Virus record (IMG/VR): IMGVR_UViG_3300005340_000062
Coordinates: 1 to 35,102 of that record
From: a virus
Length of the DNA stretch: 35,102 nt
Strand: one strand, 5' to 3'
The notes under the pieces were generated by a model, which saw nothing but the letters and a program-made list of their open reading frames with translations, was not told the origin of the DNA and searched no databases. This document shows, piece by piece, positions 1,172-31,204 of this stretch. The translations under genes and the position numbers were made by a program. Position 1 is the first letter of the stretch. Every line of letters starts with the position of its first letter.

Positions 1172-2653
1172 TCAGCGCGCGGTGAGAAGCGAACGGATTA
1201 GCGCAGCATTGCGGACGGCAGCAGCGTTATTGGGCGTTGCCGCAGCGGCAAGTTCGCGCGATTGATACAACGGAGAACGCTGCGCTAACATTTCGGCGAG
1301 CTTATCAGCTTGCCTTGATGTGAGGGCGGAGCCAAGCTTACGAGAACCGTAGTTCGCCGCTACTGAGAACGGAACGCTGAGCCCCAATGTCCCGAGCCCG
1401 GCTAGCCCGTGAACCGTCATTGCTGGAATGCTGCGGCTACCGAGAAGATCGACAACCTTGCCGCCCGCAGCATTTACTTTGTAAAGCTGTTCACGCTCCG
1501 CTTGCGTAAATCCAGGCGTGCGCTCGGGATAATTTACCTGGCCGCGGAACTGATTTTTTAGTTGCGATCCATAGGTGACGTTGGGCCGACTTTCGTAATT
1601 CCTCGTGGCCCGGAATATCCGATCCTCGGCCGACTTGGTTCGCATGGCGGCGGCGTAGTTGGCGTTTGCCTCGTTGATCGCATTTGAATAGGCGCGGGCG
1701 TCGCCAGCCACAATATGAGACGCAGGAATGTTCTCGGTATAGCTGCGAAGGTCATTAAGAGCGTCACGGGCAGCGAGCGCGTCTTGGGTGGGTCGGGTGA
1801 CGCCTGCGGCGTTTGTTGTCGTCTCTGAAGCTCGGCGGCCCAGAGTTGTCCTAAGAGTGTCAAGGTTCGCGGCGGTGATGGTCGAATTTGCGGGAGGCTG
1901 CTGGAGGGACTGAATATCTCCAAGGGTTCCCTTGGCGGTTCCGTTAGGTCCACCTGTGAAACCCTTGGCGTTGAGTCTCTGTTCGATGCCATACGCCACC
2001 GGAGCGACTTTGGTCGGGTCGAGTTCAAGGCCCGACGTCAGCGCCCCTTGATAACCGCCGAACTGGCTTTCAGTCCCCTGCTGAGCTGCGGCCTTGAGTT
2101 CCGCAGCCTTCGGGGTTGCCGCCTCGATTGCCCTTGGCCCGAGAACCCGATTGGCTCCCGCGCCGCCGAGCACTGAGCCTACAATAGCCCCCGGCTTGCC
2201 CGCAACGTCCTCGCCAGCCTGCCCAGTTAGGCCGGACGTGGCCGCAGTGGCGAGTTTGAGCGGGACGCTACCAGGGCCGAGATAAGAAATTGGGTTAGTT
2301 AGGCTTTCCGTCGCCGCGCCCGCATAGCGCCCCGGCGTGGTCTGTGCCTCGTATAGCGGCCCCGTCACCTTTTCGGCCGCCCCGCGCAATGTGGCCGAAG
2401 TTGGCAATTGCGGGGGCTCTAGGAAATTCCGGGCTTTTTCGAGGTAGGACGTGAATGTGCCCGGTGCGGATGGAGCTAATTCCGGCTTTGCCTGCAAGTC
2501 GCCGAACAGCCCCAGTCCCGATGTCACCCCCCGCACCGCGGCAGACGGGATAGTCTTGGCGATGTCCTGGCCGACTGAGGGCGCCGGCAAATCATCGAAC
2601 ATCAGCCGCTTATTGCCTTCCGGCTGCGGCAGATCATCGAACATCAGCGGCAT
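1172..2653 (-). CDS. Putative internal virion (DNA ejection) protein
   Basis: 493 residues, Ala/Gly-rich and mostly helical in character, with no catalytic motif. The N-terminus carries a short tandem duplication, LMFDDLPQP followed 14 residues later by LMFDDLPAP. There is a hydrophobic, Gly/Ala-rich segment around residues 405-440 (MTVHGLAGLGTLGLSVPFSV) that could contact or cross a membrane. It starts two bases after the stop of the transglycosylase gene, inside a run of three large genes of the kind podoviruses use for proteins ejected with the DNA. The function is inferred from position and composition. I recognise no specific Pfam family. Confidence 0.5.
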   Translation of the reverse strand: MPLMFDDLPQPEGNKRLMFDDLPAPSVGQDIAKTIPSAAVRGVTSGLGLFGDLQAKPELAPSAPGTFTSYLEKARNFLEPPQLPTSATLRGAAEKVTGPLYEAQTTPGRYAGAATESLTNPISYLGPGSVPLKLATAATSGLTGQAGEDVAGKPGAIVGSVLGGAGANRVLGPRAIEAATPKAAELKAAAQQGTESQFGGYQGALTSGLELDPTKVAPVAYGIEQRLNAKGFTGGPNGTAKGTLGDIQSLQQPPANSTITAANLDTLRTTLGRRASETTTNAAGVTRPTQDALAARDALNDLRSYTENIPASHIVAGDARAYSNAINEANANYAAAMRTKSAEDRIFRATRNYESRPNVTYGSQLKNQFRGQVNYPERTPGFTQAEREQLYKVNAAGGKVVDLLGSRSIPAMTVHGLAGLGTLGLSVPFSVAANYGSRKLGSALTSRQADKLAEMLAQRSPLYQSRELAAAATPNNAAAVRNAALIRSLLTAR

Positions 2654-17194: not shown

Positions 17195-18034
17195 CTAAAT
17201 AAGCAAAAACGTCTCATCGTCATCTTCGAGCATTTGCAGTTCGAGCAACCGCCGCGCTTCCTTCGCTTGTTCGATGAGCCGCGCGTGTATTTGCGCGTCA
17301 AGCGCCGACATGGCGTCTGTAAGCGCTTCGCTTACGTTCGATTGCTCGTTAGTCTCGACATCGGCAATCGGCTCGACGCCAATGACTTCTTCGGCAACAG
17401 CCTTCGGATCGAGGTCCGACAGGTTGCGGACAATGCCCGGCGTATGCCTTGGCTTCTTGCCATACCTCGGCGGGTAAGCGCCGCCGCCCGTGCCGGCCGT
17501 TGAATGTGTGCTTGCTGTTAGAGTAGCAGCAGTTCCAGTGAGCACATACGAACCTGAACCGGCGGCTAAACTCCAGCCATGAAGCAGAGATGCCGCCGTG
17601 CCCGAAAGCGTATAACTACCGGCACCCGCACTCAGCCGCCAAGCGTGCGTCGGTGTCGCATTAGTGCCCGTTAGGCTGTAACTGCCGCCCCCCGCAGCAA
17701 GCCGTTTTCCTAAATTTAGGTTAGCGTTAGTGCCGGTTAGCGCATATGAGCCGGCGCCTGCACTTAGCCGCCACGCATGAAGCGTGGAAGCCGCCGTACC
17801 CGTTAGCGTGTACGATCCCGCCGCGGCGCTCAGCCGCCAAGCGTGTTTCGGAGTGGCGGCTGTACCAGTTAACGCATACGAGCCGGCGCCGCCGGCGATA
17901 ATCCAAGCATGGCGTAGCGTCGCCGCCGTGCCAGTGAGCGCATACGAGCCTGCATCAGCCGGCAGTAGCTTATTGATCGCGATGCCACGGCCAATGATGA
18001 CCGGGCGAACATAGGTCCGGCCATATCTGGCCAT
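17195..18034 (-). CDS. Protein with seven 22-residue tandem repeats
   Basis: 279 residues. After a basic start (MARYGRTYVRPVIIGRGIA), residues 24-177 consist of seven 22-residue repeats built around GSYxLTGTxA and HAWRLSAGA. A Gly/Thr linker then leads to GGGAYPPRYGKK (also present in the protein at 14969-15364) and an acidic helical C-terminus. The repeats alternate short beta-prone (SYALTG) and turn segments, as in a fibre or solenoid. The gene lies between the tailspike and another virion-type gene, with four bases before it. A virion adhesin or spacer is likely. The repeat number may vary by recombination. Confidence 0.65.
   Translation of the reverse strand: MARYGRTYVRPVIIGRGIAINKLLPADAGSYALTGTAATLRHAWIIAGGAGSYALTGTAATPKHAWRLSAAAGSYTLTGTAASTLHAWRLSAGAGSYALTGTNANLNLGKRLAAGGGSYSLTGTNATPTHAWRLSAGAGSYTLSGTAASLLHGWSLAAGSGSYVLTGTAATLTASTHSTAGTGGGAYPPRYGKKPRHTPGIVRNLSDLDPKAVAEEVIGVEPIADVETNEQSNVSEALTDAMSALDAQIHARLIEQAKEARRLLELQMLEDDDETFLLI
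17504..17965 (-). repeat. Seven in-frame 66-bp tandem repeats
   Basis: DNA region that encodes the seven 22-residue units of the gene at 17195-18034. The unit is 66 bp. At protein level most copies keep GSY, LTGT and, in five of seven, H(A/G)W. Copy 4 has lost HAW (it reads LGK). Copies have diverged at DNA level, so the array is not a recent expansion. Confidence 0.85.
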
Positions 18035-27200: not shown

Positions 27201-27544
27201 CTGCGCATCTGCTCTAGTGCGGATTGGCCACTGCCTGGCTTCGGATCGCCGCAAAGAAGGCTGCCCATAGTGTCGGGAAGGTTCATTCGCCGATTGCGCT
27301 CCTCTAGGACCTCAGAGGGCGCCAAGTCCTTTTGCACGATAGGGCGATAGCTACCGCTCCCTGGCGTCGGCATCTGTATGCCCCGGCGCCGCAAACGACG
27401 CATCCGGCCCGCAACCGAATTTTCCGAGCGCCCTAAGCGTTTCGCTATCACCGGACCTGGAACGCCCCGCCGCCACATTTCCAGCGCCGCGCTACTTTCC
27501 TCACTTTTCCATTTTACTTCTCGGCTCATCGTATGCCCCGTCAT
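27197..27544 (-). CDS. GcrA-like HTH protein
   Basis: 115 residues. ATG 27544 overlaps the preceding stop as ATGA; ATG 27529 is an alternative. Residues ~10-54 (VKWKSEESSAALEMWRRGVPGPVIAKRLGRSENSVAGRMRRLRRRG) parallel the N-terminal HTH of the GcrA cell-cycle regulator (W..E....L..LW..G....IA..LG..xNxVxGxxxRL). GcrA acts with sigma-70 RNA polymerase at promoters methylated at GANTC in alphaproteobacteria. The C-terminal part is Pro/Arg-rich and lacks the rest of GcrA. It could retune host or phage promoters, as inference. A plain SANT/HTH protein is the alternative. Confidence 0.55.
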   Translation of the reverse strand: MTGHTMSREVKWKSEESSAALEMWRRGVPGPVIAKRLGRSENSVAGRMRRLRRRGIQMPTPGSGSYRPIVQKDLAPSEVLEERNRRMNLPDTMGSLLCGDPKPGSGQSALEQMRR

Positions 27545-28155
27545 GCCACGAAAGTTCCGTCATCACCTCGCACTGACGAAAATCTGCCCGCCGTATCCTT
27601 CCGGCGCGCGCGATACATAGAGAACGGGTACAGCTCGACACACATGCTCACCCATCGCTCAAGCGGGTCAGACCGCCGCAAAAGACTTCCAAGCTCCGCC
27701 CCCAACCACTCCAATTTGCGACACGCGTGCAACACCGTGGTATGATCACGGCCGCCGAATCGCCGCCCTATTTCCGGCAGACTGTCGTTGCGGAGCAATT
27801 TAGAAAGAAGCATGGCGACCTGCCGAGCCTGAACGATCGGCATATCGCGTCGCCGCGATGTCAGTTCATCAAAGCCAACGCCATAACCGCTTGCGCATTC
27901 GCGTTGAATTTGTCTGATTGACGGCCTGAGTTCTATCGCGAGGCCGGTAGCGCGTACCACGCTGGCAACTTGGTAGATTAGCTCCGCTGCGGACCTGCGC
28001 AGCCCCGCCTGATTGTAATAGTTCAAGCTCCACGCATTAAGCGGCGCGGCCGGTGCTGACTCTGGCGCCCGCATCTTGCGCCGCTCGCGCAAGGCTTTTG
28101 CATGGCGTCGGAAGTCCTCTGCCGTCCGAAGATCGGCAACAGCAATCTCAGGCAT
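27541..28155 (-). CDS. DnaA domain IV-like replication regulator
   Basis: 204 residues with a strong GGGAGG ribosome binding site just before ATG 28155. Residues ~92-150 match the DNA-binding domain IV of DnaA: VGFDELTSRRRD (93-104), VQARQVAMLLSKLL (108-121), SLPEIGRRFGGRDHTTVLHACRKLE (125-149) with the DnaA signature GGRDHTTVLHA. The AAA+ ATPase part of DnaA is absent. The protein may bind DnaA boxes and compete with or recruit host DnaA at the phage or host origin. It lies in the same operon as the replication protein. The AT-hook-free basic N-terminus is of unknown use. Confidence 0.75.
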   Translation of the reverse strand: MPEIAVADLRTAEDFRRHAKALRERRKMRAPESAPAAPLNAWSLNYYNQAGLRRSAAELIYQVASVVRATGLAIELRPSIRQIQRECASGYGVGFDELTSRRRDMPIVQARQVAMLLSKLLRNDSLPEIGRRFGGRDHTTVLHACRKLEWLGAELGSLLRRSDPLERWVSMCVELYPFSMYRARRKDTAGRFSSVRGDDGTFVA

Positions 28156-28502: not shown

Positions 28503-28749
28503 CGCCGAATATCTCGTGCATCGTTGCTTCGACTACGCAGTACGGCGGCTCGAACTCACCACTGAGCCATCTGGCAGCAGTTCTCTCATTGACGCGAGCA
28601 ACAGACGCTAGGTGCGCAGCAGTTTTGAGCGGCCATAAGAACTTGGCGACCCTTCCGAATTTTCTGCTGACAATTTTGTCAGCCCCCTGCCGAATTTGCC
28701 GTTCGATTAGCCGCGCTTCGGCAACTCTTTCCTCGTACACGGAACGCAT
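28495..28749 (-). CDS. HTH protein with long structured leader
   Basis: 84 residues from ATG 28749, with GGGG 7 bases upstream. The start at 28785 would extend into the hairpin leader and is not preferred. The sequence MRSVYEERVAEARLIERQIRQGADKIVSRKFGR is basic and helical; LASVARVNERTAARWLSGEFEPPYCVVEATM is a helix-turn-helix with the NERTAARWLSG element of Xre/Cro-like proteins. Its upstream leader contains mutually exclusive inverted repeats, so it may be controlled at RNA level. A regulator of the early-left operon is likely. Confidence 0.6.
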   Translation of the reverse strand: MRSVYEERVAEARLIERQIRQGADKIVSRKFGRVAKFLWPLKTAAHLASVARVNERTAARWLSGEFEPPYCVVEATMHEIFGDG

Positions 28750-28767
28750 GACGCAACCCCATCCCCT

Positions 28768-28857
28768 TGCCTGCGGACACTGCACCCCCCGACACCCCCA
28801 CCGCAGGCAGAAGCGGGCGAGCTGGAGAAATCCGGCTCGCCCGTGGGGTGTCGGGGA
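28768..28857. promoter_or_regulatory. Overlapping inverted repeats in leader of HTH gene
   Basis: Three inverted repeats: TGCCTGCGG/CCGCAGGCA (28768-28776 and 28801-28809), a 14-bp repeat CCCCGACACCCCAC-like/GTGGGGTGTCGGGG (28787-28801 with one extra base, and 28843-28856), and CGGGCGAGC/GCTCGCCCG inside it (28814-28822 and 28834-28842). The first and second cannot form at once as plain hairpins. The plus strand continues into ATTTTTTC, giving terminator-like form in that direction. On the minus strand the first repeat abuts the AGGGG before the HTH gene. Confidence 0.6.
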
Positions 28858-28885
28858 ATTTTTTCAAGTGTCACAAATCGCACTA

Positions 28886-28904
28886 GACGTTGTGTCACAA
28901 CGTC
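28886..28904. promoter_or_regulatory. 19-bp palindrome, probable operator
   Basis: GACGTTGTG-T-CACAACGTC is a perfect 9+1+9 palindrome. GTGTCACAA also occurs once more at 28868-28876, 24 bases to the left. It is located in the gap between the Cro-like gene and the HTH gene. It looks like a binding site for a dimeric regulator; which protein binds it is unknown. Confidence 0.6.
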
Positions 28905-28966
28905 GTAACACTCTTTCTTGGAGGCGACCGACCAAGAAGGAATTGCAAAATGGGAGTATTGAAGTT

Positions 28967-29170
28967 TCATGCGGGCCATAGGTCCGGCCGAAGTTCCGTT
29001 CGCGGAACCCCAGTTTCACGCTCGATGGCTGACACGAACTCCGCGGGAACGCCCTTCTTAGAGCGCGTAAGCCAGTACCAGACCTGTGACTGCGTGGTGC
29101 CAATCCGGTCGGCCAAGGGCTTTTGCCCTCCAACGACCTCGCAGGCGCGGCGTAATGCTTCTGAAGCCAT
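28967..29170 (-). CDS. Cro-like repressor (YdaS-type HTH)
   Basis: 67 residues. MASEALRRACEVVGGQKPLADRIGTTQSQVWYWLTRSKKGVPAEFVSAIERETGVPRTELRPDLWPA has the YdaS/Cro layout: helix-turn-helix with QKPLADRIG..QSQVWYWL, then VPAEF..IE..TGV and the family-typical ending RTELRPDLW. It faces away from the CI-like gene and is the first gene of the leftward early operon. It likely represses the divergent promoters during lytic growth. The promoter -10 is only a few bases before the ATG, so the mRNA may be leaderless. Confidence 0.8.
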   Translation of the reverse strand: MASEALRRACEVVGGQKPLADRIGTTQSQVWYWLTRSKKGVPAEFVSAIERETGVPRTELRPDLWPA

Positions 29171-29175
29171 GCGTC

Positions 29176-29204
29176 TAGAAAACCCAAATTTGGGTAATTG
29201 TCAA
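29176..29204 (-). promoter_or_regulatory. Leftward early promoter with operator in spacer
   Basis: On the minus strand TTGACA (29204-29199), a 17-bp spacer, and a weak -10 TTTCTA (29181-29176). The operator ACCCAAATTTGGGT fills the spacer (29182-29195). A TTTAG-type element precedes the -35, as in the rightward promoter at 29600. The ATG of the Cro-like gene is at 29170, so transcripts would have almost no leader. Confidence 0.65.
29182..29195. promoter_or_regulatory. Operator O1 (perfect palindrome)
   Basis: ACCCAAATTTGGGT, a perfect 14-bp palindrome between the -35 and -10 of the leftward promoter. Related sites are at 29230-29243, 29587-29600 and 29609-29622. It is the strongest candidate for binding by the CI-like or Cro-like repressor. 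Confidence 0.7.
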
Positions 29205-29229
29205 CCTAAAAATACGTTGGCGACACGGA

Positions 29230-29243
29230 ACCTAGAATTAGGT
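29230..29243. promoter_or_regulatory. Operator O2 over repressor gene promoter
   Basis: ACCTAGAATTAGGT, arms ACCTA/TAGGT with a GAAT centre. It contains TAGAAT (29233-29238), a possible -10 for the CI-like gene with a poor -35, as in maintenance promoters. Start of transcription would be near 29245, eleven bases before ATG 29256. Binding here would allow the repressor to control its own level. Confidence 0.55.
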
Positions 29244-29255
29244 AGGTTCCCGCCA

Positions 29256-29588
29256 ATGGAACTTCGGGACAAAAAGGCGTTCGCGCGCCGCCTGCTAGAG
29301 CGCATGGATGAGATGCCGATTAATCAATCGGAACTCGCTATGGTCCTTGGGACCAATCAGTCCAGCGTTTACAACTGGCTTCAGGGCACCATTCCAAGAG
29401 GCGACCGACTTGAGGATCTGGCGGATGCCCTCAGCGTAACCACGCGCTGGCTATTAAAGGGCATTGAGCCGAAATTCGCCCGGGATGGCGAAAAAATCGA
29501 AACGGCGAAAATCACCGAGATTATTGAGACAGTTCCGCCGGACAAGCGGAAGCTGATTTTGCGGCTTGCAAAAAAGTTTGCCGCCTAA
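29256..29588 (+). CDS. CI-like repressor (short, no peptidase domain)
   Basis: 110 residues from ATG 29256. Residues ~8-65 are a lambda-repressor-like helix-turn-helix: AFARRLLERMDEMPINQSELAMVLGTNQSSVYNWLQGTIPRGDRLEDLADALSVTTRWLL, with recognition helix QSSVYNWL. The remaining 45 residues are helical and charged (ETAKITEIIETVPPDKRKLILRLAKKF) and could dimerise the protein. The LexA/CI peptidase domain is absent, so RecA-driven self-cleavage is not expected and induction must work by another route (for example Cro or an antirepressor). Flanked by two outward-facing promoters. Confidence 0.8.
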   Translation: MELRDKKAFARRLLERMDEMPINQSELAMVLGTNQSSVYNWLQGTIPRGDRLEDLADALSVTTRWLLKGIEPKFARDGEKIETAKITEIIETVPPDKRKLILRLAKKFAA

Positions 29589-29599
29589 CCAAATTTAGG

Positions 29600-29627
29600 T
29601 TGACACCTACCCAGATTTAAGTATGGT
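29600..29627 (+). promoter_or_regulatory. Rightward early promoter with operators
   Basis: TTGACA (29600-29605), 16-bp spacer, TATGGT (29622-29627). The site AACCAAATTTAGGT (29587-29600) overlaps the -35 and ACCCAGATTTAAGT (29609-29622) fills the spacer. The string TTTAGGTTGACA plus the following ACCCA..ATTT is shared with the leftward promoter at 29176-29204. Drives the plus-strand early operon. Confidence 0.75.
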
Positions 29628-29654
29628 GGCTCCCGTCCATTGGGAACGGGAGCC
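29628..29654 (+). promoter_or_regulatory. 5' hairpin of the rightward early transcript
   Basis: GGCTCCCGT-(9 bases)-ACGGGAGCC, a perfect 9-bp stem (29628-29636 and 29646-29654). The right arm includes the GGGAG ribosome binding site of the first gene (GTG 29659), so folding would hide it. The expected transcription start (~29634) falls within the left arm, so only part of the stem may form in RNA. It may also be a DNA site. Confidence 0.55.
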
Positions 29655-29658
29655 ATCA

Positions 29659-29748
29659 GTGACCCACGACATGCTGGTGTTTGGCGTCGGCTTTGCCTCG
29701 GCGGTCATTCTGATCGTCGGGCTCGTGATCACGCGGCCATGGAGATAG
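29659..29748 (+). CDS. 29-residue membrane peptide, first early gene
   Basis: GTG 29659 with GGGAG 6-7 bases upstream; TAG ends at 29748, two bases before the next ATG. The sequence is MTHDMLVFGVGFASAVILIV plus nine more residues ending RPWR. A single hydrophobic helix of ~21 residues is followed by a basic end. It is the first product of the rightward early operon. Function unknown; superinfection exclusion or membrane targeting are possible roles for such peptides. Confidence 0.6.
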   Translation: MTHDMLVFGVGFASAVILIVGLVITRPWR

Positions 29749-29750
29749 CC

Positions 29751-29924
29751 ATGGGCAATTACGACACCTGGAAAACCACCAACCCCGATGACGAATGGCT
29801 CGGCCCTGAACCGTATGCCGAGGCCTTAGGCGACCGCCCATGCGATTTCGAGACGTTCAGCGGTGAATGTCTGACCTGCGGCGCACGTCTCGGCGAGCCC
29901 TGCGAACTCGGATGGGAGGAGTAA
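29751..29924 (+). CDS. Small acidic Cys-containing protein
   Basis: 57 residues from ATG 29751, with GGAG 6 bases upstream. It begins MGNYDTWKTTNPDDEWLGPEP and contains DRPCDFETFSGECLTCGARLGEPCELGWEE, with four cysteines of which CLTC is a close pair. Strongly acidic. Could bind zinc. It has the look of small early proteins that act on host functions. Not recognised. Confidence 0.65.
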   Translation: MGNYDTWKTTNPDDEWLGPEPYAEALGDRPCDFETFSGECLTCGARLGEPCELGWEE

Positions 29925-29927
29925 GTC

Positions 29928-30536
29928 ATGGAAAGCGAACAGACTGCGGAACTCGCCACCGCGCTCGCCAAGGCGCAGAGCGCTATGGGGCCGGCAATCA
30001 TCAACCGAGTAAATCCGCACTTTAAGAACCGTTATGCGGACCTCGCGGCGGTGTTCACGGCTATCAAGCCAATCCACGACAACGGGCTTAGTTTTACCCA
30101 GACGACGCAGTTCCGGGATGGCGCCTTTATCCTGCGGACCACGCTGCGCCACACTAGCGGCCAATGGATCGCGAGCGAATATCCTCTTCCGCTGAACGCC
30201 AAGCCGCAGGAAGTGGGATCGGCGCTCACCTACGCCAAGCGCTATTCCCTGTCGGCGCTTGTTGGTATCGCCGCCGACGAGGATGACGACGGCGAGGCGA
30301 CGCGAAAGCGGAACGGTAACGGCGAGCACCACGTCGAGGAAACCGGGGAGCTGATAACCCCGGAGCAAATCCAGACGCTACGCGCCGCTCTCAAGGTTCG
30401 AGAACTCGACGAGGACGAATGGAAAAAGCGAGCGGGCAAAGCGCTCAAGGCCCCGATTGCGGATTTAGGCGACATCCCCGCTAGTGCTTTTCAACGGTGC
30501 TTGAATGACGTTCGCAACGCTGGAGCGCCGCAATGA
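29928..30536 (+). CDS. erf: ERF-family single-strand annealing protein
   Basis: 202 residues, GGAGG 8 bases before ATG 29928. Residues ~10-125 have the ERF pattern: LAKAQSAMGPAIINRVNPHFKNRYADLAAV (13-42), NGLSFTQTT, TTLRHTSGQWI (71-81), and GSALTYAKRYSLSALVGIAADEDDDG (97-122), which is the hallmark of the family. The protein binds ssDNA and anneals complementary strands in phage recombination and genome circularisation. Partner of the YqaJ exonuclease encoded next, with an ATGA overlap. The C-terminal 60 residues are variable. Confidence 0.9.
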   Translation: MESEQTAELATALAKAQSAMGPAIINRVNPHFKNRYADLAAVFTAIKPIHDNGLSFTQTTQFRDGAFILRTTLRHTSGQWIASEYPLPLNAKPQEVGSALTYAKRYSLSALVGIAADEDDDGEATRKRNGNGEHHVEETGELITPEQIQTLRAALKVRELDEDEWKKRAGKALKAPIADLGDIPASAFQRCLNDVRNAGAPQ

Positions 30537-31204
30537 ACGATCTCCAGCGCACGTCCGAATGGTACACCACGCGCCTCGGCAAGCTCACCGGCTCCCGCAT
30601 TGCTGATGCGACGGCAAAGACAAAAACCGGATGGGGCGCATCACGCGCCAACTATATGGCCGAGCTACTGATCGAGCGGCTAACGGGCCTGCCTACCGAA
30701 CGCTACACAAATGCGGCGATGGATTGGGGCACCCAATTCGAGCCGGAAGCGCTTGCCGTTTATGAAGGCCGCAGCCTCGACGTAATCACGCTGACCGGCT
30801 TCGTCCCCCACCCCGATATTCTCATGTCGGGATGCTCGCCGGACGCCCTGGTAGCCATAGATGGGATGGCTGAAATCAAATGCCCCAATACGGCAACGCA
30901 CGTCGACACTGTGCTCGGCGCGCCGATCGACGAGCGATACATCAAACAGATGCAATGGCAGATGGCTTGCTGCGGTCGCGCCTGGTGCGATTGGGTTAGC
31001 TATGATCCGCGCCTACCGGAAAAGCTTCGGATTGTCGTTCGCCGCGTCGACCGCGACGATAAGCTGATCGCCAAGCTCGAAGGCGAAGCCGGTATCTTCC
31101 TCGCCGAACTCGCCGAGAAGTGCCGTCGCCTCTCCGCAATGATCGAAGGCAATGACGATACCACGCTGCGCCAGCTTAAAGCCTCAGTGGGATTGACAGC
31201 ATGA
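30533..31204 (+). CDS. YqaJ-family exonuclease (lambda Exo type)
   Basis: 223 residues; its ATG overlaps the ERF stop. Residues ~8-130: EWYTTRLGKLTGSRIADA, GTQFEPEALAVYE (E70 region), MSGCSPDALV (D104) and MAEIKCPN (E114, K116), the D..ExK nuclease core of the lambda-exonuclease family, then YIKQMQWQMACCGRAWCDWVSYD, the conserved Gln/Trp region. It resects dsDNA ends 5'-3' to give 3' tails for the annealing protein. Tight coupling with ERF confirms a two-component recombination system. Confidence 0.9.
   Translation: MNDLQRTSEWYTTRLGKLTGSRIADATAKTKTGWGASRANYMAELLIERLTGLPTERYTNAAMDWGTQFEPEALAVYEGRSLDVITLTGFVPHPDILMSGCSPDALVAIDGMAEIKCPNTATHVDTVLGAPIDERYIKQMQWQMACCGRAWCDWVSYDPRLPEKLRIVVRRVDRDDKLIAKLEGEAGIFLAELAEKCRRLSAMIEGNDDTTLRQLKASVGLTA

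Follow-up and report, generated by a model that had tools for sequence, protein, structure and literature searches.

A lambda-type switch and a candidate start-masking hairpin at pL in temperate phages of soil

Judged from sequence, the immunity region analysed here is an ordinary lambda-type switch, and a hairpin that begins directly past the -10 of its second early promoter, pL, most likely serves as a shield against read-through from cI, working like the hairpin of the T4 lysozyme gene. Taken together, switch and shield form a reading that we consider likely. The window, i.e. the whole stretch of DNA that was analysed, is IMG/VR virus record IMGVR_UViG_3300005340_000062 (35,102 nt, positions 1 to 35,102), and the features on which the argument depends are as follows.

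28967-29170, minus strand: Cro-like repressor, 67 aa, YdaS family (PF15943, Pfam E 2.7e-18)
29177-29204, minus strand: pR, -35 TTGACA (29204-29199), 16 nt, -10 TTTTCT (29182-29177)
29182-29195: OR1, ACCCAAATTTGGGT, a perfect 14-bp palindrome, motif rank 1 in the window
29204-29217: OR2, minus strand ACGTATTTTTAGGT, overlapping the pR -35, motif rank 6
29220-29248, plus strand: pRM, -35 GCGACA (29220-29225), 17 nt, -10 TAGGTT (29243-29248)
29230-29243: OR3, ACCTAGAATTAGGT, over the pRM spacer, 26 bp from OR2, motif rank 2
29256-29588, plus strand: CI-like repressor, 110 aa (HTH_3 and PHROG matches)
29587-29600: OL2, AACCAAATTTAGGT, overlapping the cI stop codon and the pL -35, motif rank 4
29600-29627, plus strand: pL, TTGACA, 16-nt spacer, -10 TATGGT (29622-29627)
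29609-29622: OL1, ACCCAGATTTAAGT, inside the pL spacer, motif rank 5
29628-29654, plus strand: pL hairpin (folding, covariation, arm-swap test)
29659-29748, plus strand: opening gene of the pL arm, a putative membrane peptide of 29 aa with a GTG start (ORF reading only)
29928-30536, plus strand: ERF annealing protein, pL arm (PF04404, E 5.9e-22)
30533-31204, plus strand: YqaJ exonuclease, pL arm (PF09588, E 2.1e-20)

Operators and promoters on both sides of cI

The gene content of the two arms corresponds to the pR side and the pL side of a lambda-like genome. The leftward arm is led by cro, whose product matches PHROG 35 'transcriptional repressor', and continues with a small HTH protein, a DnaA-domain protein and the replication initiation protein, after which come the packaging and structural genes. 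The recombination genes (ERF/YqaJ) lie on the pL side, and an AlpA-like excisionase is found near the rightward end of the window. The DnaA-domain protein (27541-28155, minus strand), a phage protein close to the replication initiation protein, carries a DnaA domain-IV DNA-binding module (PF08299, E 1e-23).

When the CI protein was used as the query, no relatives were obtained from viral or genome contigs because it is too divergent. Cro as the query retrieved 19 IMG/VR contigs (66-82 % identity) and, beyond these, one more distant contig (L070) and one genome locus; further prophages were found in genomes of the same order as a Rhizobiaceae MAG. An additional contig recovered by a DNA-pattern scan (L072) was discarded as an unrelated chance match.

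The first-pass annotation of this DNA had placed TTGACA -35 hexamers at 29204-29199 (minus strand) and 29600-29605 (plus strand), in two promoters on either side of the CI-like gene that have TTTAGGTTGACA-NN-TACCCA-R-ATTT in common, and both observations were confirmed. Exactly two copies of the pattern TTTAGGTTGACANNTACCCARATTT are present in the window, and 100 shuffles gave none, even when three mismatches were allowed. The four palindromic sites that had been listed, namely those here called OR1, OR3, OL2 and OL1, are also present at the positions given for them, and they ranked 1, 2, 4 and 5 when a motif trained on the relatives only was scored over every position of the window. That inventory had, however, overlooked a fifth site, OR2, which is kept in the relatives as ACAGATTTTTAGGT, 22 bp from OR1. 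Rank 3 went to TCCTAAATTTAGGT at 17708-17721 in a tail-region ORF, which scores on a par with the true operators and is perhaps a chance occurrence, perhaps a remote repressor site.

The arrangement of the sites is conserved. Measured from the cro ATG, OR1, OR2 and OR3 occupy -25 to -12, -47 to -34 and -73 to -60 in 16 of the 17 relatives aligned, the distance from OR3 to the cI ATG is 12 nt in 17 of 18 rows, and an OL2/OL1 pair, 22 bp apart, is found downstream of cI in nearly all relatives. The half-sites co-vary within one phage (for example, ACCGA/TCGGT types in L007, L014 and L020), as is expected if one protein pair reads all of the operators. The earlier suggestion that one repressor controls both arms thus gains strong comparative support from the recurring OR1-3 sites and OL2/OL1 pair and from the half-sites that change together. 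The description of the region as a duplicated immunity module was overstated. Divergent cI and cro genes with several related operators between them, and a further set of these operators at another early promoter past cI (29587-29622), are the standard lambda-type OL/OR layout, and the two modules are best described as OR/pR and OL/pL of a single immunity region in which operators flank cI.

The geometry of pR (-35, 16 nt, -10, 6 nt, cro ATG) is the same in 16 of 17 relatives. The -35 of pRM is weak and the cI ATG follows 7 nt past its -10; most relatives have a TAnnnT over the last base of OR3 and an nnGACn -35 at 17 nt spacing. TAGAAT (29233-29238) was considered as the pRM -10, and the site over it (29230-29243) is real, but this hexamer lies within OR3 and is not conserved as a -10; preference was given to the TAnnnT at the end of OR3, which is. 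In a consensus scan of 28600-30100, pL was the only sigma-70-like promoter, and its layout is common to the relatives. The pL discriminator (29628-29633) is G+C-rich because it is also part of the 5' arm of the hairpin; G+C-rich discriminators are typical of ppGpp-sensitive promoters. Since the gaps from -10 to ATG are short (6 nt for cro, 7 nt for cI), both messages are probably leaderless. Leaderless cI and cro mRNAs have been mapped in PY54, and in the part of the PY54/N15 telomere phage immB account considered here, PY54 Cro is reported to bind just one operator, the operators differ from those found here, and nothing was seen on read-through masking (PMC4488713).

Phage lambda (NC_001416) likewise has three OR sites that separate divergent cI and cro, its annotated operators being in the same order, OL sites at a promoter downstream of the cI operon, a cI gene read towards pL, a weak pRM -35, a leaderless cI and an OR3 centre near -19 from the cI start. 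The differences are that the operators here are 14 bp long and 22 and 26 bp apart, whereas those of lambda are 17 bp long and 24 and 23 bp apart, that two OL sites are recognised rather than three, and that, unlike lambda, cro is probably leaderless too and CI is without a peptidase domain. In addition, the OR2 centre is at -45.5 (45 bp upstream of the cI start) compared to -42 in lambda, and hence lambda-like activation of pRM should not be assumed.

A short CI repressor

The repressor had been described as having no cleavage domain, and none is recognisable in its 110 aa either by domain scan or in the predicted fold. The AlphaFold2 model (mean pLDDT 84.5) consists of a five-helix HTH (residues 6-68) and a two-helix C-terminal hairpin (83-109). 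The nearest solved folds are P22 c2, 434, SinR and 9iaq, and the HTH is close to that of the P22 c2 and 434 repressors. SinR and the arbitrium-controlled repressors (PDB 1b0n, 9iaq, 9sf2) combine an HTH with a helical C-terminus and are near the modelled CI in length and fold, but TM-scores of 0.50-0.60 and a full-length rmsd of 11-13 A make this only a lead, and no SinI or AimX partner is known here.

A domain search found no match to an S24 peptidase in the CI of the window, whereas the long relatives do have one. Short CIs account for 13 of 18 aligned rows (one of them frameshifted) and S24 CIs for five (L012, L014, L016, L017 and L018), the latter at similar operators. In L005 (1221-1463, minus strand), CI is only 80 aa long and apparently frameshifted relative to the near copy L002, which seems to reflect an assembly error or decay. 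The presence of CIs without the S24 domain beside these five S24 loci could suggest that truncation has left the short CI without function and that the phage is a degenerate prophage. That is extremely unlikely, as most relatives found have a CI of 110-131 aa with a folded two-helix C-terminus, the operators are intact, and on a tree of CI N-termini, albeit with weak support, one change is enough to separate the short and S24 forms. On this weakly supported tree, repeated swapping of the cleavage domain is not required.

Short HTH repressors of 135-136 aa without a cleavage domain or site are known from Gifsy-1/-2 (GfoR/GtgR) and Qin (DicA), and repressors of this class are inactivated by the antirepressors GfoA, GftA and Rem (PMC3121763, PMC10448788). 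The CI studied here likewise lacks the domain, though the proteins have only the HTH fold in common. As the short CI is not cleavable in the way lambda CI is, induction most likely needs an antirepressor or another signal. No antirepressor was recognised among the window genes scanned, and a LexA-box search returned a single LexA-box-like site (29036-29050), inside cro and at chance level.

The hairpin at the start of pL

The 5' arm of the hairpin, GGCTCCCGT (29628-29636), starts directly past the pL -10 as the pL discriminator, and the 3' arm, ACGGGAGCC (29646-29654), contains the Shine-Dalgarno sequence GGGAG (29648-29652) of the leading pL gene, the 29-aa peptide, whose GTG is 6 nt further on and for which a domain and family search gave no match. 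The hairpin has a folding energy of -21.8 kcal/mol compared to -9.1 for shuffles, and a z of -3.85 in a 114-nt context. The segment between the -10 and the start codon was folded for 21 loci, and in 17 of them it was more stable than 95 % of its own shuffles; the pR/cro control never reached this level (0 of 18), and 69 other genes taken from these contigs did so in 7 % of cases. Significance was not reached in L110, L012 and L116, and L017 has a weak hairpin or none. The more distant contig L070 (approximately 2035-2100, minus strand) has, downstream of an S24 CI, a longer hairpin in which the stem contains the AUG and the loop the Shine-Dalgarno.

The arms were aligned directly for covariation, and the stems of 16 loci exhibit double-sided changes at 7 of 7 positions, with a covariation of 1.145 versus 0.289 when shuffled. 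These stems were picked by folding and the count is therefore biased, a bias from which the arm-swap test is free. In this test the eight bases past each -10 were matched against the downstream regions of all other loci, and native arms paired better than swapped ones (0 of 20000 permutations reached the native value), while the pR control was not significant. The leading pL genes of different loci are non-homologous, and thus it is the structure, not the gene, that is kept. The inverted repeat, being symmetric and placed where a regulated promoter starts, might be a DNA operator for a third regulator. This is very improbable, since phages with CI/Cro operators in common differ in their arms, the variation takes the form of paired changes, and some stems (L006, L008, L015, L020 and L108) contain G-U pairs, which are of use for pairing in RNA but not for a palindrome in DNA.

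In most loci the start of the 5' arm is 1-3 nt past the pL -10, and this also holds where as much as 1.4 kb separates pL from cI. RNA from the predicted start, 6-8 nt past the -10, loses up to 6 stem pairs. The calculated cost of opening the Shine-Dalgarno has a median of 9.8 kcal/mol for read-through RNA and 3.7 kcal/mol for pL RNA (14.1 and 2.0 kcal/mol in the window), and it is lower in the pL RNA in all 19 of 19 loci. The same loss of pairs argues against an antitermination or stabilising element (nut/put-like) in the pL-started RNA. That the hairpin heads the pL operon across the family would fit such an element, but no Rfam family matches the hairpin either, and we give this explanation a slim chance.

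The gap between the cI stop codon and the pL -35 is only 11 nt in the window. Of 17 family members examined with a terminator detector, 13 had no intrinsic terminator in the interval from cI to pL, whereas the same detector recognised one after the cI operon in each of three coliphage-type controls, lambda, BTP1 and Tr60_Ab31. Most members have a candidate start-masking hairpin and no terminator before pL, while lambda has a terminator. An intrinsic terminator past cI was considered and rejected, there being no T-run behind the hairpin and no terminator found upstream either. Rho-terminated messages get trimmed back to stem-loops, and the hairpin, which lies just past cI in several loci, could mainly define the 3' end of the cI mRNA, with Rho-dependent termination downstream, exonuclease trimming back to the stem and masking as a secondary effect. 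We view this as rather unlikely, because a protective hairpin could sit anywhere past cI, whereas in most loci the 5' arm stays next to the pL -10, and the Shine-Dalgarno (in L004 the AUG instead) is contained in the 3' arm.

Read-through masking and its possible significance

The reading that we prefer is that the hairpin masks a start site in read-through RNA. The short CI, made from pRM, and the YdaS-type Cro, made from pR, would bind one set of 14-bp operators, and CI bound at OR and OL would shut both the replication and late arm (pR, leftward) and the recombination arm (pL, rightward). As cI points at pL and no terminator is present in the 11-nt gap, the cI message is expected to run into the pL operon. 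This read-through RNA would hold both arms of the hairpin and the start site of the leading pL gene would be hidden, whereas RNA started at pL would be without the 5' arm and the leading gene would be translated. Masking may in this way keep the lysogenic cI transcript from expressing the leading lytic gene of the pL operon. The later pL genes have their own start sites, and masking of the leading gene alone is insufficient unless polarity follows; Rho-dependent polarity perhaps extends the silencing to the operon. In two relatives, similar membrane proteins of approximately 62 aa are encoded between cI and OL (L003, 2377-2568, minus strand; L013, 1212-1400, minus strand), and these look like lysogenically expressed, exclusion-type genes.

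The precedent is in T4, where long transcripts of gene e (lysozyme), soc, 49 and I-TevI that start upstream fold a helix over the start site, and transcripts started within the helix, from a late promoter, have no 5' arm and are translated (PMC3014915). The pL hairpin has the same form, a helix over the Shine-Dalgarno with the promoter start, as predicted from the -10, inside the 5' arm. The difference is that in T4, a virulent phage, masking separates early from late timing, while here it would separate lysogenic read-through from lytic pL transcripts. In the literature searched, which is not the whole literature, no prior description of a start-masking hairpin in temperate phages was found, and the IS10/IS50 literature that was examined does not describe the same device.

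The alignment reveals three OR sites, two OL sites and two probably leaderless messages in a compact lambda-type switch for soil phages, probably of Hyphomicrobiales. The short, non-cleavable CI is the commonest form among the relatives found and close kin keep an SOS-cleavable one, raising the question of how the short ones are induced. The hairpin may in addition be a device that insulates lytic from lysogenic transcription. On whether the whole temperate-phage lineage insulates its pL operon mainly in this way, by a masking hairpin that is split by the pL start and that leaves untranslated RNA exposed to Rho and the operon silenced, we are evenly divided. If it does, the lysogenic message would pass through lytic DNA without effect.
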